DNA of 64,000 nt from Paramacrobiotus metropolitanus (lineage: Eukaryota; Tardigrada; Eutardigrada; Parachela; Macrobiotidae), in contig NW_026570366.1 in NCBI RefSeq assembly GCF_019649055.1, positions 1 through 64,000 on the forward strand, read 5' to 3'. Every line of letters starts with the position of its first letter. Positions within the stretch are counted from its first letter, which is position 1. The position numbers and the translations under genes are program-made. The notes under the pieces were generated by a model. That model worked only from the letters and a program-made list of their open reading frames with translations, had not been told where the DNA came from and did not search any database. This document shows, piece after piece, positions 2,552-57,916 of this stretch.

Positions 2552-5500
2552 ATTTCTGACTCAGGAAGAAAAACTAATAGTATTTGCCCATAAAAAACAA
2601 CGTTGAAATTTGAAATTACCGAAACTCATTAAGCCACGCCCAAAACCAAGTTACATAGGTAACACGTAACCAAAGATGTGACCGACATGTATTTCATACT
2701 ATTTTTGCTCAAAAAGACGTGACATTTCAAACAAAGAAGAAATCGTCGCAGTTACAAGTAACTTACACGGTAACCGACTATATGTCATGGTAACCAATGC
2801 AGTAACAGGTGCCGTTACAACGGTGGTAGCTGATACTGCTATCATTTTGGTACCGGTTTTAGTTACATTAGTAGCGGGCACCGCTACTAATTTAATAACG
2901 AAAATTGGTACTACAGTGATAGCGGGTACCGCTATCACTGTAGTAACGGGTACCGTTACTACAGTGGTAACGGGCACCGTTACCATGTTGGTAACGGGTT
3001 ACCAACAATGTTTACAGAGCAAACTGTTGCAAACAGCGTCGCAAATGAAGCTAACGACTTGGCAATTACAGCAGACTGTATGGGATGTCAAATAGGGGTG
3101 CTTTGGACTTGGTTACATATGGTAACCATATATATTACAATGGTAACGCTACCGTTACCAAAGGTCATGGGGTCAGATATCAAAATCTTTTACTTTTTGG
3201 ACTCAGGAAGAGAAACTGATCAAAACCGTCCATAGAACACGTAGTTTTTGTGCCACCCGGCCATTTTCACTTAAACCCCGCCTCCCAACGATCCGGATTG
3301 GTCGGTGGGCGTTATTATGTCTGTAATACTTATATGATTAGGAAGGGGTGGTACCTACCTGATACGAACGTCCGCCACGCCCATCCTGACCCACCCCAAA
3401 AGTTTCCGTCATTAAAGCGGCCGGTACTAAATGTGACCTTACATTTGCAAATCTGAAGATTCATTGCGTTCACCCGATTTCGAGGTTTCGATGAACCGGC
3501 TGAACCGACTATCAGACCAAAAAACGAACTATTGAACCTTTTTTTCACGTCAAATCATTCTGGGTAGTCGGCAAAGACTTTTTCAAAAGGTCACCAACCA
3601 GAGTTATACACTATAAATGGTCACGTGACCACCGAATCTATGGTTAGGAAAGGTCACCCAGGTGACCTTTTACCAATTTCTGACTCAGGAAGAAAAACTA
3701 ATAGTATTTGCCCATAAAAAACAACGTTGAAATTTGAAATTACCGAAACTCATTAAGCCACGCCCAAAAACCAAGTTACATAGGTAACACGTAACCAAAA
3801 GATGTGACCGACATGTATTTCATACTATTTTTGCTCAAAAAGACGTGACATTTCAAACAAAGAAGAAATCGTCGCAGTTACAAGTAACTTACACGGTAAC
3901 CGACTATATGTCATGGTAACCAATGCAGTAACAGGTGCCGTTACAACGGTGGTAGCTGATACTGCTATCATTTTGGTACCGGTTTTAGTAGTTACATTAG
4001 TAGCGGGCACCGCTACTAATTTAATAACGAAAATTGGTACTACAGTGATAGCGGGTACCGCTATCACTGTAGTAACGGGTACCGTTACTACAGTGGTAAC
4101 GGGCACCGTTACCATGTTGGTAACGGGTTACCAACAATGTTTACAGAGCAAACTGTTGCAAACAGCGTCGCAAATGAAGCTAACGACTTGGCAATTACAG
4201 CAGACTGTATGGGATGTCAAATAGGGGTGCTTTGGACTTGGTTACATATGGTAACCATATATATTACAATGGTAACGCTACCGTTACCAAAGGTCATGGG
4301 GTCAGATATCAAAATCTTTTACTTTTTGGACTCAGGAAGAGAAACTGATCAAAACCGTCCATAGAACACGTAGTTTTTGTGCCACCCGGCCATTTTCACT
4401 TAAACCCCGCCTCCCAACGATCCGGATTGGTCGGTGGGCGTTATTATGTCTGTAATACTTATATGATTAGGAAGGGGTGGTACCTACCTGATACGAACGT
4501 CCGCCACGCCCATCCTGACCCACCCCAAAAGTTTCCGTCATTAAAGCGGCCGGTACTAAATGTGACCTTACATTTGCAAATCTGAAGATTCATTGCGTTC
4601 ACCCGATTTCGAGGTTTCGATGAACCGGCTGAACCGACTATCAGACCAAAAAACGAACTATTGAACCTTTTTTTCACGTCAAATCATTCTGGGTAGTCGG
4701 CAAAGACTTTTTCAAAAGGTCACCAACCAGAGTTATACACTATAAATGGTCACGTGACCACCGAATCTATGAGTTAGGAAAGGTCACCCAGGTGACCTTT
4801 TACCAATTTCTGACTCAGGAAGAAAAACTAATAGTATTTGCCCATAAAAACAACGTTGAAATTTGAAATTACCGAAACTCATTAAGCCACGCCCAAAAAC
4901 CAAGTTACATAGGTAACACGTAACCAAAAGATGTGACCGACATGTATTTCATACTATTTTTGCTCAAAAGACGTGACATTTCAAACAAAGAAGAAATCGT
5001 CGCAGTTACAAGTAACTTACACGGTAACCGACTATATGTCATGGTAACCAATGCAGTAACAGGTGCCGTTACAACGGTGGTAGCTGATACTGCTATCATT
5101 TTGGTACCGGTTTTAGTAGTTACATTAGTAGCGGGCACCGCTACTAATTTAATAACGAAAATTGGTACTACAGTGATAGCGGGTACCGCTATCACTGTAG
5201 TAACGGGTACCGTTACTACAGTGGTAACGGGCACCGTTACCATGTTGGTAACGGGTTACCAACAATGTTTACAGAGCAAACTGTTGCAAACAGCGTCGCA
5301 AATGAAGCTAACGACTTGGCAATTACAGCAGACTGTATGGGATGTCAAATAGGGGTGCTTTGGACTTGGTTACATATGGTAACCATATATATTACAATGG
5401 TAACGCTACCGTTACCAAAGGTCATGGGGTCAGATATCAAAATCTTTTACTTTTTTGGACTCAGGAAGAGAAACTGATCAAAACCGTCCATAGAACACGT

Positions 5501-18983: not shown

Positions 18984-20555
18984 ATGCTGAAGCGAGCGCT
19001 TAGTAGGTTAGTGTGTGCTTTTCAGTTTACGGTATTCTAGAGTATCATAGCTTCGCACTTGGTTATATCTGCCAGTTGCCAACTGATATGCTCGTTATTC
19101 GTAGATTTTTGCTGATGGAGCGGCAAGGTGGTGATCGACGGATAACACCTGGCCATTGTCAGTGGCTGCGTGGAGTGAAGACGCGTAGGCAGCCCGCGGA
19201 ACTGGCATCATTGCATCGTAAGAGCATCCGCACAGTGTCTCAAGTCGTTCCCGGAAAAATTGCGCCAACTCCGCCATCATTTATGCCGGGGAGCGGTTTG
19301 TCCGTTCCGAACGCTGAAACGCCGTTGGCAGGAATGAAGTACAGCACTTAAACTGAACAGCTCACATAACCGTACAGATACATACTCGTACTATTGAAAA
19401 GTTACCGACAGTTTTAATATCAGTATTTGCTTTACGTGCCTACGGGGTTCGTGATACATATCTACGGCACACTGTTGGAACTTACAATTTAGAAGTGAAA
19501 TCTGGCTGCTTACTTAACTTAGCGGTGGCGTATGTCAGTGTAATTAGACATGGTAGACATTATGTCGGGATTCGGATTCAGCTCGGTAAACCATCCAGGT
19601 GGCAAGTCTGCTGCAGTTAAAACTAACTGTACGTTGCAGGGAATCTCGTGTTATCCGCTTTCCGACGCCAACCATTCGGCTCGCACCATGCGTAAATAGC
19701 GGTGTGAGTATTTGTACTTCTACAGCTACAGTTCTACGCGTAACTGCAAACAAGCAAACAATGACTAACAATAAGTAAGGTTTTTTGGGTGTTCTCTGAT
19801 GTACCTTTTCGTTCGACTTCGTGCAACATTGTTTTAAAAAATTGAAAATGAGTGTAATTTAGGTATTTTCAACTGCATTTGATTTCGTCATTGTTATTTC
19901 ATCGTAGAACTCAGTCGGTGGTGGGTTTTTCATCAAAGGAGTCCAAAAGTTGATGGATGAGAGGCTGGCGCGCGTTCGAGCGGGGTGAGTTGCGCAGCAA
20001 ATGTCCTTCTTTGTTGGATACGGTATTAAGTCTGTAAAATTGCTCTCCTTCAGGGAAAAGGGTCTGCTGACGGGGACCGCACGAATTAGACTGGACATTG
20101 CCATTAACACGGACCACCAACGCGACTGGTTTAAAGCCTGGGGACAAGTGGGGGAGAGCATAGTGCGTATGGATGCTGGCTTCTACAGTCACGAATACTG
20201 GGGTAAAGGAATTTGCGAGGAAATACCAAACTTGGCACGTCCGTTTCACATGGTTTGGAAAGCATCGCCGACGGGTAGCATGAACATCGCTCTGATTATC
20301 ATTGGTGACTCCGATCACGCCCAGGAAACATTCGTGAAAATGGAGGAAAATGTCATGGAAGGGATTCAGCATCTGCATGAAGTACGTTGTATTAAAGAGG
20401 AAACCACATTTGTAGCGTTCCGTGGGCCAGCGTTCTACTGGGGAGTTGCGCGTCTTGGCCAGACGCCCATTCGTCGTTGTGAGTTGACGGATATCCGAGA
20501 GCCGGCAGCCGAGGAGGTGCTCGAGCAGCTGGCCACGCACCTTTGTGCTTTGTGA
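18984..20555 (+). CDS. Gene A copy 1: unrecognised conserved protein, ~6 exons
   Basis: I do not recognise the family. A plausible model starts at the ATG at 18984 (MLKRALSR, then a GT donor). It continues with an exon at about 19108-19340 (LLMERQGGD to GMK), an exon at about 19592-19691 (ASLLQL to APCVNS), a short exon at about 19903-19986 (NSVGGG to VRAG), then EKGLL from the acceptor before 20054, to a TGA at 20553. The last 170 residues carry the segments DWFKAWGQVGES, HEYWGKG, MVWKASPTGSMNIALIIIGD and a C-terminal EEVLEQLA helix. The basic N-terminus could be a mitochondrial targeting peptide (inference). Copy 2 at 39765-41424 keeps the same frames and splice sites, and most differences in the last exon are silent or conservative. 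That pattern argues for a functional protein in at least one copy. The short exons' exact borders are my reading of GT/AG sites. Confidence 0.6.
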
Positions 20556-36071: not shown

Positions 36072-36220
36072 TAAGTACTCTAACCGGTAAGTCTAGCCGA
36101 TGACAGCATTGTGGCACGCCATGTCGATTCATAGTTTCACAGTGGACCGGCGCTCGCGCTCGGTGCAATGATGTGGTTATATTAACCGCCACTAGTACTA
36201 ACATAATATTACTAAACATT

Positions 36221-36507
36221 ATTACTAATATTACTAATATTACTAATATTACTAATATTACTAATATTACTAATATTACTAATATTACTAATATTACTAA
36301 TATTACTAATATTACTAATATTACTAATATTACTAATATTACTAATATTACTAATATTACTAATATTACTAATATTACTAATATTACTAATATTACTAAT
36401 ATTACTAATATTACTAATATTACTAATATTACTAATATTACTAATATTACTAATATTACTAATATTACTAATATTACTAATATTACTAATATTACTAATA
36501 TTACTAA
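36221..36507. repeat. 9-bp microsatellite (ATTACTAAT)n, ~32 copies
   Basis: An uninterrupted 287-bp run of a 9-bp unit. Because 9 is a multiple of 3, it is open in several frames (NIT, VIL and SNI repeats). These are artefacts, not genes. Confidence 0.98.
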
Positions 36508-36552: not shown

Positions 36553-38954
36553 GCAACCCCTACGGGTTTGGCACTTTTCGAAACTCCCAAATTCATACAA
36601 CTTGTTCGTACTATGGCTCAAAAAATAGAGGAAAAAAATTCAAGTTTGTGAAGCGAAAGTTAGCTAGTAAAAAGTTATCAGGGAAACGAAACGTTTGCGA
36701 TTTATGTAATTCAGGTTTAGCACTGAGGTCTATGAGGCTGTTTGCCATAGACCTCTACGGTAAACAAAAATATTGATTTTTTTCATTGTGATCAAATCAA
36801 AACAATTAAAATGTAATCACTTAATCAAAACAAAACATCCAGAACTATAATCAGTCAATTAAACAACCAAACAGTGCGTTCAATACGGTCTCGCGTGCGG
36901 TAGTGCTGAGTGCCGTGCGGTCGTACTTCCCGGAATACTTCGTCTTTTTTCAGTCAGCTTATGGACACCATTCGTCACTGTTCATCGACGACCACGTTCT
37001 ATCATCCGAATCCGGTGTACAGCAGGGGGATCCATTGGGACCGCTACTATTTTGCCTCGCATTGCAATCAGTTATTGCCTCCCTGGATACCGAGCTAAAC
37101 GCTTGGTACCTTGACGATGGGACGTTGGGCGGGCTTCCTAGTAGTGTACTTGAGAATTTTGACCGCGTCATCGAAAGAGCACGGGCGACTGGCCTGGAAA
37201 TTAACGTCGGAAAGTGCGAATTATACGTTGCAGGCGGTTCTGAGATTACACAGCAAGAGGCAATTACCAATTTTCTTTCAAGGCATCCGGGAATCCGCGT
37301 CATGTGCAGCACTAATTTAACGCTTCTAGGAGCCCCTGTGCTGGACGACGCGATTGCCCCTGTATTTGCCGAGAAAGCGAAGTCGCTGACCGCGGTATGC
37401 GAAAGAATGAAATTGCTTCCCCGTCACCACGCCTTATTCCTTTTAAGGCACTGTCTCGGAGCACCGAAAATCATTTACATGTTGCGGTGTTGCAACGCCT
37501 GGAAATATCCTGAGCAATTGTACCAAATCGATGAAGTATTGCGGTCTTGTTTCCAGCTTCTATGTAATGTCCGGACAAATCACGATGATTATCCCAGTTG
37601 GCGGCAAGCAAGTCTCCCGGTTAGCAGAGGAGGCATTGGTCTACGTCGATCGGAGGAATTAGCACTCCCAGCCTTCCTGGCTTCGATTCACTCCGTCGGC
37701 GACCTGGTGTCTTTGTTGCTTCCCAGTCGAGAGACTTCAGACATTACCGTTGCTCTAGAAATGTGGAAGGCAAAAGCCCGTTTAACAGAACTGCCCGTTC
37801 CAGAATTCCGCAATTCCCAGAAGGCATGGGATTTGCCATTGTGTAATGTATCTCTGGCTGCCCTGCTAGAAGTATACCGGGATGATGAAATTAATAAGGC
37901 GCGTCTGCTTGCCCAGTCGAGACCAGAAGCCGGCATTTGGCTCAACGCGTTGCCTTCCGCCCATATAGGTAACCTCCTCGATGACGATACTCTGAAAATC
38001 TCAGTAGGCCTTAGACTCGGCGCCAGGATTTGTGAACCTCACAACTGCACGAAATGTTTAAAGCCGGTCGACGGATACGCTCATCATGGTCTTTCCTGTA
38101 CCTTCTCCGCCGGCAGACACCCAAGACATGGTGGCCTTAACAGTATCGTATGTCGGGCTTTTGTATCAGCCGGAATCCCAGCTAAACTTGAACCCCGAGG
38201 CACTTCCCACACCAACGAACGACGCCCCGATGGCTGCACAACGTTCGCCTGGCAGCGAGGAATGTGCTTGGCATGGGATGTCACCTGCGTGGATACTGTT
38301 GCCGCTTCCCACATCAAATCTACTTCGGCAATTGCGGGATCGGCCGCGTTGCAGGCTGAAGAGAAGAAGTCTAGGTTCTATTCTTATTTAAACGGCCGCT
38401 ATATATTCACACCTATCGCTTTTGAAACTATGGGCCCGTGGGGACCAGCGGCCATTGCCATCATAAAAGAACTGGGGAAAAGATTACGTTCTCATTCAGG
38501 AGAAGCCCGCTCGCACGAATTTCTTCGACAACGTTTGTCCATAGAGATACAGCGTGGTAATGCGGTTTCTGTTTTGGGCACGGTGGAGAAAGCCGAAATG
38601 TTTAACGAGCTGTTGTTTTTGTAACTGTTTCTCTAACACGTGTTTAAGTGATGGTTTGAAATAAAATGCGACACCACCAAACAGTTAGATTTTTGATCAA
38701 CTGAAGTAGTTTTTGTTTAGCATTGATGTCTATGGCAAGCTGCCTCGTAGACCTCAATATGGCAAGCTGCCTCGTAGTCCTCAATGCTAAACAAGAATTA
38801 CATAATCGTGAAGTTTTCGCTTTCGTGATAACTTTCTACTCGCCAGCTTTCGCATTGACAAACTTAAAATTTTTTCCTCCATTTTTTGAGCCATAGTACG
38901 AACAAGTTGTATGAATTTGAGAGTTCTGAAAAGTACCAAACCCGCAGGGGTTGC
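36553..38954. mobile_element. RT-carrying element enclosed by ~220-bp inverted repeats
   Basis: GCAACCCCTACGGGTTTGG at 36553 returns inverted at the right end as CCAAACCCGCAGGGGTTGC, ending 38954. The arms (about 36553-36770 and 38715-38954) stay about 80% similar through CATACAACTTGTTCGTACTA and the GCTCAAAAAAT box to the TTTAGCA.TGA box. The right arm has an extra internal duplication of ATGGCAAGCTGCCTCGTAG. Between the arms lies one RT/endonuclease ORF (next entry). No target-site duplication is evident. Non-LTR retrotransposons normally lack TIRs, so either the ORF was captured by a foldback element, it inserted between two inverted MITEs, or this is an unusual element type. Confidence 0.8.
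36885..38624 (+). pseudogene. Reverse transcriptase with C-terminal restriction-like endonuclease, 5'-truncated
   Basis: The readable frame begins at about 36885 with FNTVSR, a typical RT motif-3 start, upstream of the first possible initiator (GTG at 36903). It continues GVQQGDPLGPLLF (palm motif B) and YLDDG (catalytic motif C), then a thumb/linker region. A Cys/His knuckle follows (CTKC, then HHGLSC), then RRPDG with WDVTCVD about 16 residues on, the PD...D pattern of restriction-like endonucleases. It closes with QRLSIEIQRGNA before the TAA. The N-terminal RT motifs are missing and no ATG fits, so this copy is 5'-truncated. From 36885 to the stop there are no internal stops over 579 codons, which makes it recent or constrained. 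Class: non-LTR-type RT with REL-type endonuclease; the clade is not assigned. Confidence 0.85.
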
Positions 38955-39764: not shown

Positions 39765-41424
39765 ATGCTAAAGCGAGCGCTTACGAGGTGAGAGTATGCT
39801 TTACAGTTTACGGTATTCTACAGTATCATACTGTAGCTTCGCAGTTGGTAATATCTGCCAGTTGCCAACTGATATGCTGTTATTGAGTTATTCGTAGATT
39901 TCTGCTGATGGAGCGGCAAGGTGGTGATCCTCTGATAACACCTGTCCATTCTCAGTGGTTGCGTGGAGTGAAGACGCGTAGGCAGCCCGCGGAACTGGCA
40001 TCATTGCATCGTAAGAACATCCGCTCAGTGTCTCGAGTCGCTCCCGGAAAAATTTCGCCAACTCCGCCACCATTTATCCCGTGGAGCGGTTTGCCCGTTC
40101 CAAACGCTGCAAAACCGTCGGTAGGAATGAAGTACGTACTTAAACTGATGGTGAGGAGCTCACAGTCTCACACACCGTACAGATACAACTGTTGAAAATT
40201 AACGAAAGTTTTGGTACTCGGATTTTATTCGAAAATCATAATTAAAAATAATTGATAGGCAGGGCGTATAATAAATATCTGTGCTGCGTTGTCGTAACTG
40301 TAAGTAATTTTATGACTGACTTTATCGTTGATGGCGTTGTTACCTTTTTATACTAAGGACTTCAGGTGCCTATTTGCAATTTGATTAAATGGGGATAGAG
40401 ACAGTATTACATGCTAAAGTGTAACTATGCGCCATGATGTCAGCTCAGCAAATCATCAAGGTTGCAAGTCTGCTGCAGCTAAACCTAACTGTACGTTGCA
40501 GGGAATCTCGTAATATCCGCTTTCCGACGCCAACCATTCGGCCAGCACCATGCGTAAACAGCGGTGTGAGTATTTGTACTTCTACATTTCTACTCTTAAC
40601 TGCAGACAAGCAAACAATGATTACAATAAGTAAAGTTTTATGGGTATTGTCTGATGTATCGTTTCGTTCGACTTCGTGCAACATTGTTTAGAAAATTAAA
40701 GATGAGTTTAATTTAAGTATTTACGCAGTTTTCAACTGCGTTCGATTTCGTCAGTGTTATTTGATCGTAGAACTCAGTCGGTGGTGGGATTTTCTCCAAA
40801 GGAGTCCAAAAGTTGCTGGATGAGAAGCTGGCGCGCGTTCGAGCGGGGTGAGTTGCGCAACAAATGTCGTTCTTTAATGGATACGAGTACAGTATTAAGT
40901 CTGTAAAATTGGTATCCTTCAGGGAAAAGGGTCTGCTGACGAAGACTGCACGCATTAAACTGGATGTAGCCATTAACACGGACCACCAACGCGATTGGTT
41001 TACAGCTTGGGGACAAGTGGGGGAGAGCATATTACGCATGGATGCTGGTTTCTACAAACACGAATATTGGGGCAATGGAATTGACGAGGAAATACCAAGC
41101 TTGGCACGTCCGTTTCACATGGTGTGGAAAGCATCGCCGACGGGTAGCATGAACATCGCTCTGATTATCATTGGTGACGCCGATCACGCCCAGGAAACAT
41201 TCGTGAAAATGGAGGAAAACGTCATGGAAGGGATTCAGCATCTGCATGAAGTACGTTGTATTAGGGACGAGACCACATTTGTGGCGTTCCGCGGGCCATC
41301 GTTCTACTGGGGAGTTGCGCGCCTTGGCCAGACGCCCGTTCGTCGTTGTGAGATTACGGATATCCGAGAGCCGGCAGCCGAGGAGGTGCTCGAGCAGCTG
41401 GCCAAGCACCTTTGCGCTTTGTGA
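39765..41424 (+). CDS. Gene A copy 2: unrecognised conserved protein, ~6 exons
   Basis: The model parallels copy 1. ATG at 39765 (MLKRALTR), then exons with LLMERQGGDPLITP (from about 39903), ASLLQLNLTVRC (about 40465), NSVGGGIFSKGVQKLLDEKL (about 40764) and EKGLLTKTARIKLD (from about 40924), ending in a TGA at 41422. Residues DWFTAWGQVGES, HEYWGNG, MVWKASPTGSMNIALIIIGD and the C-terminal EEVLEQLA are retained. Differences from copy 1 in the last exon are few and mostly conservative (I/V, K/R, S/A). I see no stop or frameshift in either copy, so both may be expressed. The function is unknown. Confidence 0.6.
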
Positions 41425-43029: not shown

Positions 43030-45145
43030 TTAACGCAGTGAGCCCCCAAACGAAGCCCAAGGAAAACCCGTGGCTGCGGCACGGGCAAAGACAAGACGAC
43101 GGTCGTTGTCGCGCGCGATGTACTTCTCAAAACACGCGCTACGCCAGTTACCCTGCGCTTTTATAGCATCTGGTGACGCTCCACATTCGGACGCGAATGT
43201 TGCACCACCGCGCCGGAAGGAATGAATACTGAAACTCGAGCCATCGTACCCAGCTGCATTTAACGCGGTATGTAGTAGCTGGGTAAAACGATCCGCTGAC
43301 AGTTCTTTCACCCGACCACTGTTATCGCGGTAACAGAAGACTGATCGGTGACCTTTATGCACGTCAGAGTCACGCAGTTCCAAGAAGGCTTTTGCAGGAC
43401 AAAATGCTGAACCGGCGCGCATCGGAAGTGGAATAAGAATATTATGTCCAATATATTTGTTTGTCTTCATAACGGGCTCCGAAACGAACAGGTTATCTTT
43501 TCCCACCGTGACATCCCGAAAGCAAATGTGCAGTCGATTATTCGATGCGGCAAATAAGTTACTCTTTCGCAACAGCGAAAAGAATGCAAATAGGCATGCC
43601 GTCCAAAACGCTTTCCGTACTTCCGCGGGAAGTCGGTGTAAGGCACTGTAGATGCCTTTTAAATGCCGCGTTAGAATAGGAGGTTTTTTATTTGGAAATT
43701 CCCTGCGCTGACGGCGCACTCCCTCCAGTGCTTGCTTAATCACAAAATGCTTAAGATCGGGCGCTGGTTTGTTACGAAAATGATGTAACGTCACAATGGC
43801 TGCCACATAATTTTGCACCGACGAGAATTCAAGGCTGCGCGACAGCTCAGCAATATACAACCCGATGGTGCGCGGCTTCGCCGGTACTGGCTGTAGTCGA
43901 TGACGATCGCAAAAATTTAAGTAGCGGCACCATTGAACTTTTCTAGTGCGAAGGGATGACGGCGCCAAAGCATTCAGCCGCAACGAGTTCAGGATCCGGT
44001 TGAGATTGGCTGTTTGGGTACCTGGAACAGTAGTCACCAGGCGCAGTGAACTATGGCCACTGTTAATGCGGTCAACAACGGTTGACTTATAGATGTCAGC
44101 AGTGGTGATGCGGCTCAGAGCATCTGCAAAACTGTTATCGGCACCAGGAATGTGGCAAGCGTCCACATAAAAATCATGCTGGCACGAAGCATAAAATACT
44201 AATTTTAACCACTTTAAAGCCTCCAGAGATTTGCAAAATCCGCGTTTTAAAAAGGCAACCGTGGACGAATTATCGCTTTCAATCAGTATCGTGCAACCAC
44301 CGAACGCCGGTGCCCAGACCAAGATCGGGATGCAAGCGGCAACCATTTCCAAATAATTTATGTTCGTTCGTAAACTATGATTAACCAGCGGCGGACGAAT
44401 AAAATTTGGCAGTACGCGTAGGTGATGGGAGATATCCGCTAAATCCCAACTGCCGGCTAACCAGCTATTACCCAATGTGGGACCAAACCCAGAAAACGAC
44501 GCGTCTGTAGAAATGCGAATCACGCGGCTGGGCTTTGAGATTACATATTGCGTCATACCATTAAGCTGCGTGCGACTGTTTGCCACCAAACCAACTCACT
44601 GCGGATTAGTGCAGTTACTCTCACTCTGTGGTGAGGCCGCTGCAGTTGAGTAACTGCATCTATAAAAATTCGGGAAAACGCCCGTGCGCCTTTCACTGCT
44701 CGCGACGCAAAACAAATCAAACCCAGTAACGACTGCAGTTGAATTTTACTGTTTTGCATTATTTTCGAATTCAGCGCATTTAGACACTAATTTCCGTATC
44801 TTCTCTTCTGGTAGTTCCATTTTCTGCGCCACGGAATCGATAATTATGCCAAGAGAACGTACTCGTTGCGTGGGGTAGATAACCTTGTCCCAATTAAAAA
44901 CGAAGCCGAGCAATAAAAGTAATGCTATTAGCGCCTGCTGAGCGGCCGCGCATAATTCGTAGTTGTCAGCGATCACCAGGAAATCGTCCAGTGCGGCACA
45001 ATTTTAAAACTACGTCTACGAATCATCCGCGCTACGGCGGTAGATAATCGATGAAAAATACTTGGAGCACAAGACAGGCCAAAACTTAAAAAGTTATCGA
45101 CATAGTATTCGTCGGAAAAAGAAAGTGAACTAACTGTACATTCTG
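43030..45145 (-). pseudogene. DIRS-like retroelement: RT remnant, RNase H, tyrosine recombinase
   Basis: Reading 5' to 3' on the - strand, an RT fragment appears first: FLSFGLSCAPSIFHRLS (from about 45110), then after a frameshift LDDFLVIADN (about 45000, the DIRS form of the catalytic motif), then LLGFVFNWDK. Two further frame changes near 44750 and 44570 lead into a 519-codon frame (44589-43030). This carries RNase H (RISTDASFSGFG, INYLEM, ESDNSS, HIPGADNSFADALSR) and a tyrosine recombinase with LLRKSNL, HSFRRGG, GNW and a following EKYI, giving the R...H-x-x-R...W...Y catalytic set. DIRS elements insert by tyrosine recombinase rather than integrase. The 5' end and RT N-terminus are missing and the RT frame is broken, but the recombinase frame is intact. 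No terminal repeats were recognised. Confidence 0.9.
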
Positions 45146-51273: not shown

Positions 51274-54200
51274 ATGCGGATCTCTGCGTTGCTTTTTGTT
51301 CTCGTTTCGGCAGCCGTTGCCAATGCGGCATTTACCGGCTCCTTGAATCAAGGTGCCAAAAGCCTACACGCTTTGTGATTTTTAGCAAAATATCAGTTTG
51401 CAAACAAAATCAATTTTACAATGTAAAATTTGGATGATTTATGCAGATGCCCATTTGCTTCTGACCAAAGCCATCCGACAAACGAGGACCGCTGCAAACA
51501 TTGCCGGACTGCGCAACCGGAAGTAAGCTCTATTTACCGTATAAACTATAAGCCTCATACTGCAATTGTAAGTTCTGCGTTGTCCATAGTACAGACTTAT
51601 GAGCGTACAATTACTGGAAGTAATTTTTGAAGAGCAGTTTTGAAAACTGTTCGGTGTCCACAACATAAAAAACATCTATTACAGTGTGGCATTAAGCGAA
51701 CTGCAAAACCAACTGCTGAATACTATACAAAGTCATGCCGAAAATGTCGTGGCGGAGATTTCAACGGCCATCCAAGCCGGTCAAACGGCGGCAGAACAAA
51801 TAGCTGCTTTGATTCAAAATGCTTTGGTCCAGTTGCAGTCCTTGGGTGAAAATATCGCCGCTCATGGTCAACAGCTTCTGCAAGATCTTTTCAACAATCT
51901 GTTAACCCAAAATGGTAAGAAGTTAATTCTGGTGATTGTGTACCTCACTACTACCTCCCCATTCGCTACTCGCAAATAATCGCAACCACTCGTAAATTGG
52001 TAACATTGTTTAGTTGTTCACAAACTGCTGGTAAGCATTCATAGAAGTATCTTTTATATGCAGAGTATTGTGTATAATAATTTAATCATTATATTATGCC
52101 AAAACAATTTAGGCGGATTGGGCTTTTTTCGTGTGACAACGTTTATAATGCTTTGGTTACTGAACTGTTTAGCAACGCATATAGCCACGCTGTGCTACAA
52201 TTTACGAAACAACTGCAAATAGCGTATTGTACATATTCGTCTAGCATATACCCAGTAGATATGCGGAACTTCTCTTTCGCTTGAGTGTCTAAACAGTCTA
52301 TCGGTAATTAGTATTACGTCTGTACTGACGATGAATATATTATTTCTTTTTCTAGCACCATCAATGCACTTTCAGCGCGCACGTGTCCTCGTTGTTGATT
52401 TGGATCTGCAGGCTCTTTTCGAGCAGGCACTGCTGGAATATCTACATGCAGTAAGTTCCGGAAACTGGTCGAATTTATGTCACAGTGTACACACAAAAAC
52501 CAATAGCATTGGCAGTATTATCTTCTGATCATTGTTTTTGCGCATCGATCATTAATAAATTCATCGCTCACCGATAAGCATGTATGCATGATTAGGCGAC
52601 AGTGTGAAAGGTCACGTGTATTAACGTGATTGTGTTTTACCTGGATTTCGCTTTTTGAACAGCTGCGGAAGTTTCTGGTTCGACGTTGCCATACTTGTTT
52701 ATTGACGAGTAACTGTAGTATGAGAAGATATTCGAATTGTTTGCACTTGCAATTTTTTGCCTCTGCAGGTCGGTATTCCCGAGAACCAGTTGCAAATCGT
52801 AATAACAGAGGTTATGCAGAACTTTGGTTTCACGGTTGAAACGCGTGGAGTTTTCGATGGTTTGGGACATCTGGCTCAAGTGCTGTCCAATCTGCTCACA
52901 TTGGCTCAGTCTACCGCAGGAAACACGTAAATACAGAATAACAACGGGATTCCAAAAAACTTTATCCCAAAAATTGAGTTACGCCTCTTTTGCAGTTTTG
53001 TCGCCGTGCAAACTCTGGTTCAAAGCTTCCTGAGCAGCGCACAGGCCGCCGGTGAAGCAGCTGTCAGTGCCGCTGCCGCGCAACTGCTCGATCTTCTCAA
53101 ACCAGTCCAGAATGCGCTGGGGCCCATTTATACTGAAGTACAGAATGTCATCAATCAAATCCTCACCGGACGACCTTCCACGAGTCAATTACAGCAAAAT
53201 GCTAATCAGAAAAGCTTGTCCGAGTTGACAAGCATTTTGTCGCAGTTGGTCGGCCTGGTTGGTGCAACAGCCGATAACACGTAAGACAACAAACCCTCTA
53301 AAATATTGCTTGTGGGAAAAAACTAATTTTTAATGTCTTTCGTAGACATGTGGCAGTACACACCTTAGTGCGGGGATTTCTGAGCAGCATGGCGGCCGCC
53401 GGTGGAATGGCCATGGACGCAGCTGGTCAACTCTTACTGAACTTCTTGTATCCGTTTAAATGGCTCCTGGGTACGATTTATGACCAGGTGGAAAGTGCGG
53501 TCACATCCATTCTGGGTGGTGGTCGACAGTTGATCATCCCACCAGTTATCGGATCCAACAACGATTTGCCTAGCACACTGGAGGTTTTGCGCTTTCTAGC
53601 CCTGATCGAACCGAACAATGTCCTGGCCGAATCCATCGTGTAAGCGCTGCCTAAACAGAATTTCCAAAATTTTGCGTTATTGCGTTTATCTTGCTTTTAT
53701 TATATAATACAAGTTATGAATAAATTGGAAAGGATTAAAAACAACATTCAGTATCAGAAAAAACCATATAATCAGCATTAAATTGCAGTGCTTTGACGGT
53801 GGGGCAGACAGTCCAGAGCTTTGTCGACAAAGCAGTCGCTGCCGACATCTATTCTTCCACCGAAAGCGCTGCACAAGCTCTCCTTGATTACCTTGTTCCG
53901 TTCCAAACCGAACTAGGAAAGGTCTACGACTTTGCTGTGGCTCTAACCGGTTCACTGTATCTACCCAGCGCTCTTGCTGGCAAATCTGACCTCGAAAAGG
54001 GCATCATCAGTGGCATTACCAACATGGCCAACGTAGTATCAACTTTAATCGGATTAGCCCAATCTACCGCTGGAAATACGTAAGCATATGTCTCAGTAAT
54101 TTTATTTGATGTGCTTGTAGGGTATCCGAATAATAAAGAATAACTAGTAAACTTATGGGTCTCTTGCAGTCATGTGGCTGTACAAAGTATTATCCAACAG

Positions 54201-55458
54201 TTTTTAAGCACCGCTATGAATGCTGGCGAAGCTGCTGTGAGCGTTGCCGCTTCCCAACTTCTCAACTTCATCCGACCTTTTCAAAATTTATTGGGCGGTG
54301 TGTACACTGAAGTACAGAATGCGATTAACCAATTCCTATCAGGCACTGGACTGGGTGGTGCAAGTAAACTAGAACGCCATGTCCAGCCTCGAGGATTTTC
54401 CGACTTCTCCAGCATTTTGTCGCAGCTGATTGGAATTATGGGCTCCACAGCTGGAAATACGTAAGCGCGCAGTCCAAACCAGGAAATCAATGAAAGGTCA
54501 TAATCTGCTTGGCATTGCAGTGCCGTCGCCGTTCAGAATTTGGTGCAAGGTTTCATCAGCAACATGGTTGCTGCCGGTGGAATGGCTGCGAATGCTGCTG
54601 GCCAACTTTTACTGGACTTCTTGTCACCGTTTCAGTGGATGCTGGGATCAGTCTACGATCTCGTGGAAAGTGCCGTTTTATCCATTTTGACCAAGGATGG
54701 GCGCCGATCGTGGATTATCAGCAACACGGGTTCCAATGGCGATCTGCAAAGTACACTCGACATTCTCTCCATCATTGCCGCCGCTCAGCATGGTCAACTG
54801 ACGTCAGATTTCCTTGTGGAGGCCACGATGTAAGCATGACCTTTACCTTACCACCATTGCGAAAGCTGTATTTGTCCGCGTCCTTCTTAATAATATTGGT
54901 GCATTTGTTATTTGACAGCGTCACCACTATAGCGCGAACCGTCCAGAATTTCGTATCGTGGTCAATAGCAACAAACACCCATCCATCCGCAGAAAGTGCT
55001 GCACAAGCCCTTCTGGACGCTATTGCGCCTCTTCAAGATGAACTCAAAGAGGTGTACGATTGGACTGCGCTTGTCATTCAAATTCAGTACTTCCCTAACG
55101 CCGTGTCCACCAGATCTGTTTCGCATGAAAAGGGCATCATCGGCAACCTTGCAAATATTCTGTCGACTTTAATCGGAATGGCTACATCCACGGCCGGGAA
55201 CACGTAAGACCGAAGAAATTTTTTCAGAAATGTCCAAAATGCTTCATTTCTTATTATTGCAGACATGTGGCTGTGCATACATTAGTGCAACAGTTTCTCA
55301 GTACTGCCGTTGGAGCCGGACAAGCAGCTGCGCAGGCCGCTGGTAACACATTGCTGAACTTCATCCGACCTTTCCAAAGCATCCTGGGTGGTATTTACGA
55401 GCAAGTTGTGCAGGCCGTGGCGGATATCGTGGGCAACACCCCGGCACTTGAAATCTAA
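51274..55458 (+). CDS. Secreted helical protein built from repeated three-exon cassettes, 11 exons, ~844 aa
   Basis: I know no named family for this protein. The signal peptide is MRISALLFVLVSAAVANA. Exons are 51274-51374, 51685-51914, 52356-52450, 52769-52926, 52996-53280, 53346-53639, 53789-54079, 54170-54460, 54521-54829, 54919-55203 and 55263-55458; all join in frame to a TAA. From exon 4 on every intron is phase 2, and exons fall into three types. A (exons 5, 8, 11) has AVQTLVQSFLSSA, AAQLL and a P(F/V)Q..LG..Y core. B (6, 9) has MAAAGGMA, AAGQLLL and an LG..YD.VESAV core. C (7, 10) has STESAAQALLD, EKGII and an ending such as LIGLAQSTAGNT. Exon 4 ends like C. The order is therefore (C)-ABC-ABC-A. 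The sequence is Ala/Leu/Gln-rich and amphipathic with almost no Cys, so probably an extracellular helical bundle. AATAAA lies at 55704. The exon 1 donor (GTGATT) is weak; the rest of the model is firm. Confidence 0.88.
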
Positions 55459-55709: not shown

Positions 55710-56387
55710 AATTCGAATCACGGACTGTTTCGCTATGGCCATACGAGGACAATCGATAAACGAGATCGTATCTGAATACAAATTTGTTGTTGGACAAGTA
55801 CCACTTCAACTTGTTTACTAATTTCACCGATTACTACGAAGTCTAATGGTTGGGTCAGACGGTGCCTGCAAAATCACATCAAGGAATTAAACGCATGACG
55901 TACTGAAGCACAAACAACAGGCGCTCCATTTTGGCGGAGCTACTGTAGTTGTCGGCTACTAATGTTGGTATACTCAAGGCGTACAGTATATTATGTAGAG
56001 TATGTACTCGTATGTATGTCTCCACTTGCCAACCATTAAGCAAAATTTCGGTTTTCGCTTATCCATAGAATACGTGCGAACATGTAACCCGATCCCAGTA
56101 TATTTACATCTGATCCCCTACGTACAGTATACTTTAAAAGTGGGCAGGAACGTGTACTTTGCTACCCATGCTTTCGTCAAACTTTGTGAACAGTGTATTG
56201 ATTTTTGCAAAACTGCTACGAGCCTTTTCGGTTATAAAGTCTCTGGTAAACCACAATTCACAGGATATAGTTGACCTTTTTGTACGAGGTAATGGCATCC
56301 ATGATCGTTTACGACCTTTAAGGTGTTTGCAGGTATCTAACCAAAAACAGCGTGTGGATAGCTATGATAATTTAGTGCGAAGCGGTC
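55710..56387. other. Intergenic, no gene seen
   Basis: Short open frames only (for example 56002-56274, +), without family signatures. Upstream region of the Gr-like gene. Confidence 0.5.
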
Positions 56388-57916
56388 ATGTTTCCAAAAG
56401 TTACGACCACGTCTAAAGACGCCCAAGGTCACGCTCCTACAGGTTGGCTGTGGACAATTATGAACCCTTGGATGGCTGTTTTGCACACATTAGGCATCTT
56501 CTATTATCCATCTAAAGACTTCACATATAAAACAATAATCTTTATGCGCAGTATTTTGATACTGGAAGCGCTATTGATAACAGCTTTTGGTGTATTTGAC
56601 GCTTACGATACGTGGACGAATTATCCGACAAACGGCAGCAAATTTTCGGTGATTCTGATTGGATTTATTAACACTATTATTTGCGTAATAGAGTTACCGT
56701 ATATGATCATTATGTGGATGGCTAGTGAGAGAATCGCTCACCTTGTTCAAAAACTAGACGTAGAATTTGGCAAATTTTTGACGCTTCGTGATTGGTCCGC
56801 TCTAATATTTGTAGTGGTCGCGTCGTTAATTGGTATTACGGGGGTATCTGGACTGTTTCTGTACAGTTATGACCGCAGTGACGAACTCTACAGCACCGCG
56901 GAAAACTATAACCAGCTGTACTTTCCAAATGCTTCCGTCGAAACGTCGCTTGTTTTCACTGTAGTATCTCAGGTTGCGCTGGCCATTGGTGACCTGGGAA
57001 AGCGTTTTCTGCTTGGATTCATCGCATGCTTAGCGTTTGCCGTTGGGTTAATGTTTCGCCGGCTCGCCGCAAGAGCGCGGTCATCAAAGAACGAAATGGC
57101 CTCTTACGTGTTGTTGCATTCAAAGTTGGGTGCAATTGTGCAAGAACTCGATGCTTTGGTGTCTTTAATAACGGCGGGATACGCTCTGGTTACTCTGGGC
57201 TGGATCATTATCGCCATATTTAATATCAGCGCCCAATACGCTAATTGTGGTGCACCAGTCAGTTCTACATTACTCACGTTCATTGAGTCCGCTTGCAAAC
57301 TCAGCTTTCTGGTTTGTGCTTGTGTATTTTCAGTGGAACAGGTGAGCTTTTTTATACGAATACAAAACATTTTTCAAAAGCGGATGCGCGCGCGCGAGTA
57401 TGCATGACCTTTGGCTTAATCCAAATATTTTAATAGTATTACGTGTGCCCGAATTATCCTCACCGGGCTTATAAAGGGTCCGCTGAATTCGGTTTTTTAT
57501 ACAGGGGCAGTTGATCGTTGGTCTGCTTGAAGTAGATTTGGAAGAAAATTGCATGATAGCGCATGAGGATACCTGTAAAGACAACAAATGTGGAATGTAT
57601 AAAGTGAAACGACTTTATCTGCAGCGCATGCTACGTGCTCCTCCGGGATTCACTCTAGCGGGAATTGTAGTCACTCGGGAAAGGGCACTCGAGGTGAGCT
57701 ATTTAATATTTACGTACACCAAACTACGAGTTGTTTGTACAAGTACGCAATTCCTTTAAAATGAATAAATTTAAACACCTTTGCTTAATTTGGCAGGTAG
57801 TTCTCGGTATGATAGGATGCATTCTCGTCTTTACGGAACTGGCCGGCAGCAGCAATACGAGCTTCACTTGTCCTCTAACCGTTAACGGAAGCGGAACCGC
57901 TGGACGAATTGTTTGA
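56388..57916 (+). CDS. Gustatory-receptor-like seven-helix membrane protein, 3 exons, 420 aa
   Basis: Exons 56388-57341, 57505-57693 and 57797-57916 join in phase 0 through GTGAGC/ACAG and GTGAGC/GGCAG sites. The protein has several hydrophobic helices: around residues 45-70 (ILILEALLITAFGVF), 85-110, 135-160, 185-215, 255-280 and 290-315. It closes with the segment GFTLAGIVVTRERALEVVLG that runs into a last helix (MIGCILVFTEL). A short cytoplasmic-type loop, then FTLAG, then a final helix is how invertebrate chemosensory Gr proteins end, although the usual TYhhhhhQF motif is not exact. Length (about 420 aa) is typical for the family. Ligand unknown. Another insect-type seven-helix receptor family is the main alternative. 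Confidence 0.65.

Follow-up and report, generated by a model that had tools for sequence, protein, structure and literature searches.

A three-exon cassette duplicated in a predicted secreted protein of the tardigrade Paramacrobiotus metropolitanus

In the stretch analyzed here (positions 1 to 64,000 of contig NW_026570366.1, assembly GCF_019649055.1; hereafter the window), the tardigrade Paramacrobiotus metropolitanus carries a predicted gene whose product appears to have grown by duplication of a block of three exons, each encoding a helical module of ~95 residues. The gene, called the C146 gene in comparisons with other loci, belongs to a small family and is the longest of the members found in the genome, which was searched as 169.8 Mb in 533 contigs. 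Tentatively, we take its product to coat lipid or other hydrophobic surfaces outside cells.

Gene structure and the duplicated cassette

Joined at GT-AG sites, the 12 exons of Table 1 give a single frame of 2589 nt (862 aa and a stop codon). The initial annotation had counted eleven exons joined in frame behind a signal peptide. The joining stands: the exons run open from 51274 to the stop at 55456-55458, and exon 1 encodes a signal-peptide-like stretch. The count was one short, and eleven is the number obtained when 52356-52450 is left out of the list. Signal peptides, both here and in the relatives described below, were judged by eye and not with a predictor; from the look of the N-terminus, secretion is likely.

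All 11 introns (59-441 nt) are GT-AG. Nine donors read GTAAGN, one reads GTAAAT and that of intron 1 is the weak GTGCCA, which is supported by an intron at the same place and phase in the relatives on C29. If exon 4 is left out, exon 3 can be followed by just two in-frame donors free of stops, GTGATT and GTGTAC; if it is included, exons 3 and 4 have the donors GTAAGA and GTAAGT. The end of exon 4, DLDLQALFEQALLEYLHA, resembles the end of exon 2 in the C29 genes, LDLQSLLQNAIAALF, and a phase-0 intron follows each, the two introns falling in different columns of the automatic alignment. Overall, we consider the gene and cassette anatomy as described here to be very probably correct.

Six whole exons show the module order A-B-C-A-B-C. 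Each has phase 2 at both ends and a length divisible by three, as had been proposed for the module borders. Identity between modules of the same letter is 51/94 for A, 51/97 for B and 47/93 for C (51-54%); in the 12 cross-type pairs it runs from 17/88 to 37/91 (19-41%). The six modules can be paired in 15 ways; A/A, B/B, C/C has the highest mean identity (0.525), followed by a pairing at 0.416. A tree of nine modules joins C1 to C2 with support of 99.7/99 and B1 to B2 with 97.5/98, and A1 to A2 with only 74.2/58. Nonsynonymous divergence (dN) is alike in the three same-letter pairs (0.341 for A, 0.402 for B and 0.389 for C), which fits one block duplication. Pairing, tree and dN support the three-exon cassette duplication that the initial annotation had put forward.

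Synonymous divergence (dS) is 2.17 for B and 2.83 for C, with dN/dS of 0.185 and 0.137, and lies beyond estimate for A. Because dS by the Nei-Gojobori method (NG86) was undefined in 5 of the 8 pairs tried, we assign no age to the duplication. These values fit a single old event that copied the three-exon block, with purifying selection acting on it, and they argue against a copy introduced during assembly.

The order first proposed ended in a further A module, and this last letter does not hold cleanly. The terminal module in exon 12 is 43.8% identical to A1, 53.1% to A2, 54.7% to B1 and 46.9% to B2, and the tree groups it with B at 87.6/76. By sequence it is intermediate between A and B, which counts against a perfectly clean cassette reading. 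The exon before the first module had been said to end like a C module, and alignment scores for the end of exon 5 bear this out (z of 12.7 against C1 and 11.0 against C2, compared with 3.3 against A1), although the margin is small by plain identity (15/51 and 15/49 with C; 13/51 and 14/52 with A).

An LG..Y core had been noted in A and B. It is present in both; it also occurs in C1, and C2 has LK..Y, the L and Y being invariant across the seven modules. The residues invariant in all seven are F11, A26, L30, L31, P36, L41 and Y45. A common origin of A, B and C, likewise proposed earlier, is borne out by five cross-type pairs, in each of which none of 500 shuffles reached the observed local alignment score (z 7.9-19.6, from shuffles that do not preserve helical periodicity). 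As a possible further copy, the N-terminal domain of exon 3 was compared with the module as well, giving hhalign 33% and E 4.4e-4, and shuffle z values of 5.0 against A3 (the exon 12 module), 2.6 against A2 and 0.7 against A1.

Table 1 Features of the C146 gene (window positions) and loci of its relatives
Feature	Position	Strand	Description
Exon 1	51274..51352	+	Start codon and likely signal peptide (AVANA/AFTG); phase 1 at end; donor GTGCCA
Exon 2	51447..51522	+	N-terminal domain; phase 2 at end
Exon 3	51685..51914	+	N-terminal helical domain, conserved in C29/C49 relatives; phase 1 at end
Exon 4	52356..52450	+	31 codons, DLDLQALFEQALLEYLHA at end; then phase-0 intron
Exon 5	52769..52926	+	Phase 0 to phase 2; C-module-like end (AQSTAGN^T)
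Exon 6	52996..53280	+	Module A1, phase 2-2, 285 nt
Exon 7	53346..53639	+	Module B1, phase 2-2, 294 nt
Exon 8	53789..54079	+	Module C1, phase 2-2, 291 nt; helices predicted
Exon 9	54170..54460	+	Module A2, phase 2-2, 291 nt; helices predicted
Exon 10	54521..54829	+	Module B2, phase 2-2, 309 nt
Exon 11	54919..55203	+	Module C2, phase 2-2, 285 nt
Exon 12	55263..55458	+	Terminal module between A and B types; TAA stop at 55456-55458
AATAAA	55704..55709	+	Possible polyadenylation signal
C29 inverted pair	L005 2783-3887 and 8737-7634	+ and -	
C49a	L006 2365-4621		On C49; 638 aa

Shorter relatives in the same genome

In a search of the genome, the 862-aa protein matched two C29 genes exon by exon (four matches, E 2.3e-6 to 8.1e-4); on C49 there were two further matches, both weak (E 0.08 and 0.09). 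A C29 query led in turn to C49 (E 5.6e-9) and back to the C146 gene (E 1.5e-4). The two C29 genes, C29a and C29b, are inverted and stand tail to tail; each encodes 261 aa, and the two are identical at 253/261 residues and differ at 21/786 nt. Their codons are strongly biased, so that the secreted product is apparently abundant, and the pair has the look of a recent duplication or of gene conversion.

C29a, C29b and C49a have a signal-peptide-like start, share an N-terminal helical domain and contain one C-terminal helical module, and a profile of the modules matches their C-termini over 54 columns (hhalign 97.2%, E 3.9e-11). Introns are shared as well. Intron 1 (phase 1) of the C146 gene shares its alignment column with an intron of C29a/b and has no counterpart in C49a; for intron 2 (phase 2) the counterpart is in C49a, in the adjacent column, and C29a/b have none. 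The next introns follow in the same order, phase 1 in the C146 gene and C49a and phase 0 in all, in different gapped columns and hence with less certainty. Judged by the homologous C-terminal module and the shared N-terminal intron phases, the C146 gene belongs to one unnamed family with C29a/b and C49a.

We read the last exon of the C29 genes as the counterpart of exons 5 and 12 of the C146 gene, with the six module exons lying between them at AGN^T. Growth of the cassette seems to have taken place in the last exon of the family, inside what was the one C-terminal module of a shorter protein, since each relative carries just one such module and intron phases are shared. In the course of events that we propose, an intron at the AGN^T border would turn the module into a symmetric exon unit, phase 2 at both ends; the module exons would diverge into types A, B and C; and one block duplication would then yield C'-A-B-C-A-B-C-(A/B).

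C49a has three copies of a cysteine-containing domain, D (SYKCLKENGLTVTFEWVQ inside), two of them intronless after its C-terminal module. These copies are a second, different repeat expansion in the family; hhalign found no relation between the D domain and the module. C49b and C42 each hold a diverged D-domain copy (C49b against C42, E 1.1e-22; C49b against C49a, E 4.5e-10), in gene models that are incomplete. As hhalign shows no such relation, these two are tied to the C146 gene through C49a only. On the minus strand of C12 (L008 ~4465-4557), 31 codons within a reading frame are 97% identical to the last exon of C49a. This partial copy overlaps an open reading frame (ORF) that looks receptor-like by eye, and it reads as recent.

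Codon bias, measured as the effective number of codons (ENC), is strong in C29a/b (32.5 and 32.9), medium in C49a (43.4) and slight in the C146 gene (55.0). For comparison, two other ORFs of the window have ENC values of 58.5 and 56.6, and four short SAHS frames of 42.8-55.8. This contrast in codon usage suggests that the short relatives are probably abundant and the product of the C146 gene less so.

Composition, predicted fold and searches for a known family

The initial annotation had described the modules as helical, and the AlphaFold2 models (seven module rows) agree, with modest confidence: A2 and C1 contain helices only, at a mean predicted local distance difference test score (pLDDT) of 63.4 and 76.0, respectively. 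The mature C146 protein is 10.4% charged, with a grand average of hydropathy (GRAVY) of +0.36, an isoelectric point of 4.87 and no cysteine. It lacks N-glycosylation sequons altogether, against an average of 7.3 in shuffles, 0/2000 of which have none; this deficit is indicative only, since repeats make the positions non-independent. The absence of both N-glycosylation site and cysteine is unusual for a secreted protein of that length. C29a/b lack sequons too, not significantly so in C29a (1.7 expected; 295/2000 shuffles have none), and C49a has one sequon and six cysteines. The mean hydrophobic moment exceeds the mean of 300 shuffles in all four proteins, with z of 10.4 for C146, 7.6 for C29a, 7.0 for C29b and 5.8 for C49a, and its peak lies at 95-100 degrees for C146, C29a and C29b and at 90 degrees for C49a. 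As far as their sequences tell, then, these proteins are hydrophobic, poorly charged and amphipathic.

No named family had been recognized in the modules at the outset. A strong match of each module to one, named beforehand as the outcome that would speak against this, did not appear: across all seven single modules in Pfam, the best match reached only E 0.015. Sequence searches of the PDB returned one match for the full protein (E 1.1, a polyketide synthase), five for the module profile (E 0.31 to 1.2) and none for C29a. Foldseek on the A2 and C1 models gave best E-values of 2.9 and 3.0, and VIA-align best Z scores of 4.4 and 5.1, all within noise for helical models of modest pLDDT; these comparisons cover the two single-exon models, and the stacking of modules lies outside their reach. 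Titles and abstract openings from a literature search, and passages of PMC9224920, PMC9145152, PMC12167791, PMC8277472, PMC11191345 and PMC3459984, contain no description of the family. We found no name or tested function for it.

One annotation was considered and rejected. TAFH / NHR1 (PF07531) matches the 862-aa protein in two stretches at 36.3 bits (E 5.6e-9), above the gathering cut-off of 27, yet no single copy covers the profile or passes alone. Two of five single border-spanning units scored 14.2 and 14.8 bits, at profile positions 5-43 of 90, and the other three gave nothing; TAFH is not listed for any of the seven single modules. Because the single units are weak or matchless, we read the full-length score as a sum over repeats. 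The likeness lies in a whole-protein score above the cut-off and the difference in weak, partial single-unit matches; TAFH proteins are nuclear.

Other features of the window

Directly downstream of the gene, 56376-57407 holds a 343-aa ORF with a multi-pass membrane look (by eye) and no Pfam match at 0.001. Between 1 and 12200, a 137-145-aa ORF (VTNAVTGAVTTVVADTAIILVPV inside) occurs ten times, at 133, 2682, 3808, 4924, 6067, 7186, 8303, 9441, 10584 and 11706, a long-period tandem array with ~1.1 kb spacing from 2682 on; Tandem Repeats Finder, with periods limited to 500, does not list it. At 36220-36507 the 9-mer TATTACTAA is repeated perfectly in 32 tandem copies, shortly followed by a reverse-transcriptase ORF at 36825-38624 (RVT_1, 31.8 bits, partial). 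A 521-aa ORF on the minus strand (43030-44595) weakly resembles tyrosine recombinases (Phage_integrase at 25.0 bits, under the cut-off of 27.1) and may belong to a DIRS-like element. At 19989-20555 and 40852-41424 lie unnamed ORFs of 188 and 190 aa that closely resemble each other; neither has a Pfam match at 0.001.

Discussion

What might such a protein do? Our leading guess, to which we give a probability of roughly 0.35, is an extracellular amphipathic-helix protein coating lipid or other hydrophobic surfaces. It comes from sub-threshold Pfam matches of C29a together with the hydrophobic, low-charge, amphipathic and unglycosylated character of the proteins. The matches are to Apolipoprotein (PF01442; 9.6e-5), Perilipin (PF03036; 6.1e-4), ApoLp-III (PF07464; 0.077) and ApoO (0.088). 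Exchangeable apolipoproteins, apolipophorin-III and perilipins bind surfaces through amphipathic helices and have often grown by internal repeats. By analogy with apolipophorins and apolipoproteins, and without demonstrable descent from them, the modules would form bundles or hairpins of amphipathic helices that open onto the surface of lipid, lipoprotein or membrane, or coat it, in the extracellular space, and more modules per molecule would give a larger covered surface or a higher valency.

Several points weigh against this surface-coating role. The C29a scores fall far under their cut-offs (22.6 bits against 90 for Apolipoprotein, 19.4 against 33 for Perilipin, 13.6 against 36.3 for ApoLp-III and 13.1 against 31.4 for ApoO), too low to make C29a a member of any of these families, and low-complexity helices may be all that they reflect. 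The four families stand among 18 listed for C29a, with unrelated helical ones such as Baculo_PEP_C (2.2e-4), and none of the four is listed in Pfam for C49a or the 862-aa protein. Real apolipoproteins are charge-rich, unlike the proteins of this family, which in C146 also differ by whole-exon modules of ~95 residues. Amphipathic helices occur in every helical bundle, a property for which shuffles make a weak control; amphipathicity above shuffles is compatible with reversible binding to lipid surfaces, and no more. Confidence in the AlphaFold models, finally, is modest (63 and 76), and each covers a single exon. A variant that we regard as possible but doubtful is that tardigrades have their own class of secreted amphipathic-helix proteins, unrelated by descent to apolipophorins, one member of which became a multivalent coating chain through the three-exon block duplication.

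The rival that we rank next, itself rather doubtful, is a structural matrix protein of eggshell, cuticle, adhesive or a silk-like material, in which helical modules rich in Ala, Leu, Gln and Ser and low in charge would be stored soluble and assemble later, module number setting the length of the chain. Tandem modules suit this role, as do the low-charge hydrophobic composition and the lack of cysteines and sequons, and the ENC values of the C29 pair (32.5 and 32.9) are as expected of an abundant product. The helical repeats of spidroins may offer a likeness. The C146 gene itself, however, is little codon-biased, and no fold match to a structural protein emerged from the models, modest as their confidence is.

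Less likely still is a bundle that carries a ligand such as a fatty acid, retinoid or pheromone in a cavity in each module. The tandem ~95-residue helical modules and their seven invariant residues (F11 to Y45, above) would fit a design comparable to that of nematode polyprotein allergens or of insect repeats of the cockroach Bla g 1 type, which are secreted tandem helical modules of ~100-130 residues. Neither allergen family is listed in the Pfam scans to E 10, in which HMMER filters drop most matches above ~0.1. By eye, the modules have a single dibasic site, which is in B2 and does not fall at a border, so cleavage into single units is not indicated.

A secreted desiccation protectant analogous to SAHS is quite unlikely. 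The C146 protein is probably secreted, and the genome carries a SAHS cluster on C3, where a tardigrade SAHS1 probe found a best match at E 3.4e-19 and 57% identity. SAHS proteins are beta-barrels known only from tardigrades, and they resemble the C146 family in being a secreted, clustered family of the same genome. That tardigrades carry lineage-specific protectants is stated in passages of a review (PMC9224920), in a table of which P. metropolitanus has CAHS and SAHS genes. The chemistry is opposite, however: four SAHS open frames of the genome (including a few intron-derived residues) are 28.6-29.9% charged with GRAVY of -0.68 to -1.05, hydrophilic where the C146 protein is neither hydrophilic nor rich in charge, which argues against a SAHS-like hydrophilic protectant. 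No sequence relation between the two was seen, and none was specifically tested. With a GRAVY of +0.36, the role of a hydrophilic heat-soluble stress protein now looks less likely.

That the exons are not one gene at all, being chance open frames or parts of separate genes, is highly improbable: the weak first donor would suit it, whereas 11 GT-AG introns yield one open frame, introns are common to the C146 gene and its relatives, and same-letter exons combine dN of 0.34-0.40 with dS of 2.2 (B), 2.8 (C) or beyond estimate (A).

As it stands, the C146 gene offers a clear case of protein growth through duplication of a block of whole exons. Because short, unduplicated relatives persist in the same genome, the states before and after can be compared directly. 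Were these ordinary matrix proteins, the interest would be mainly evolutionary; if they do coat lipid or eggshell, they would make up an extracellular toolkit of tardigrades in addition to the well-studied heat-soluble proteins.

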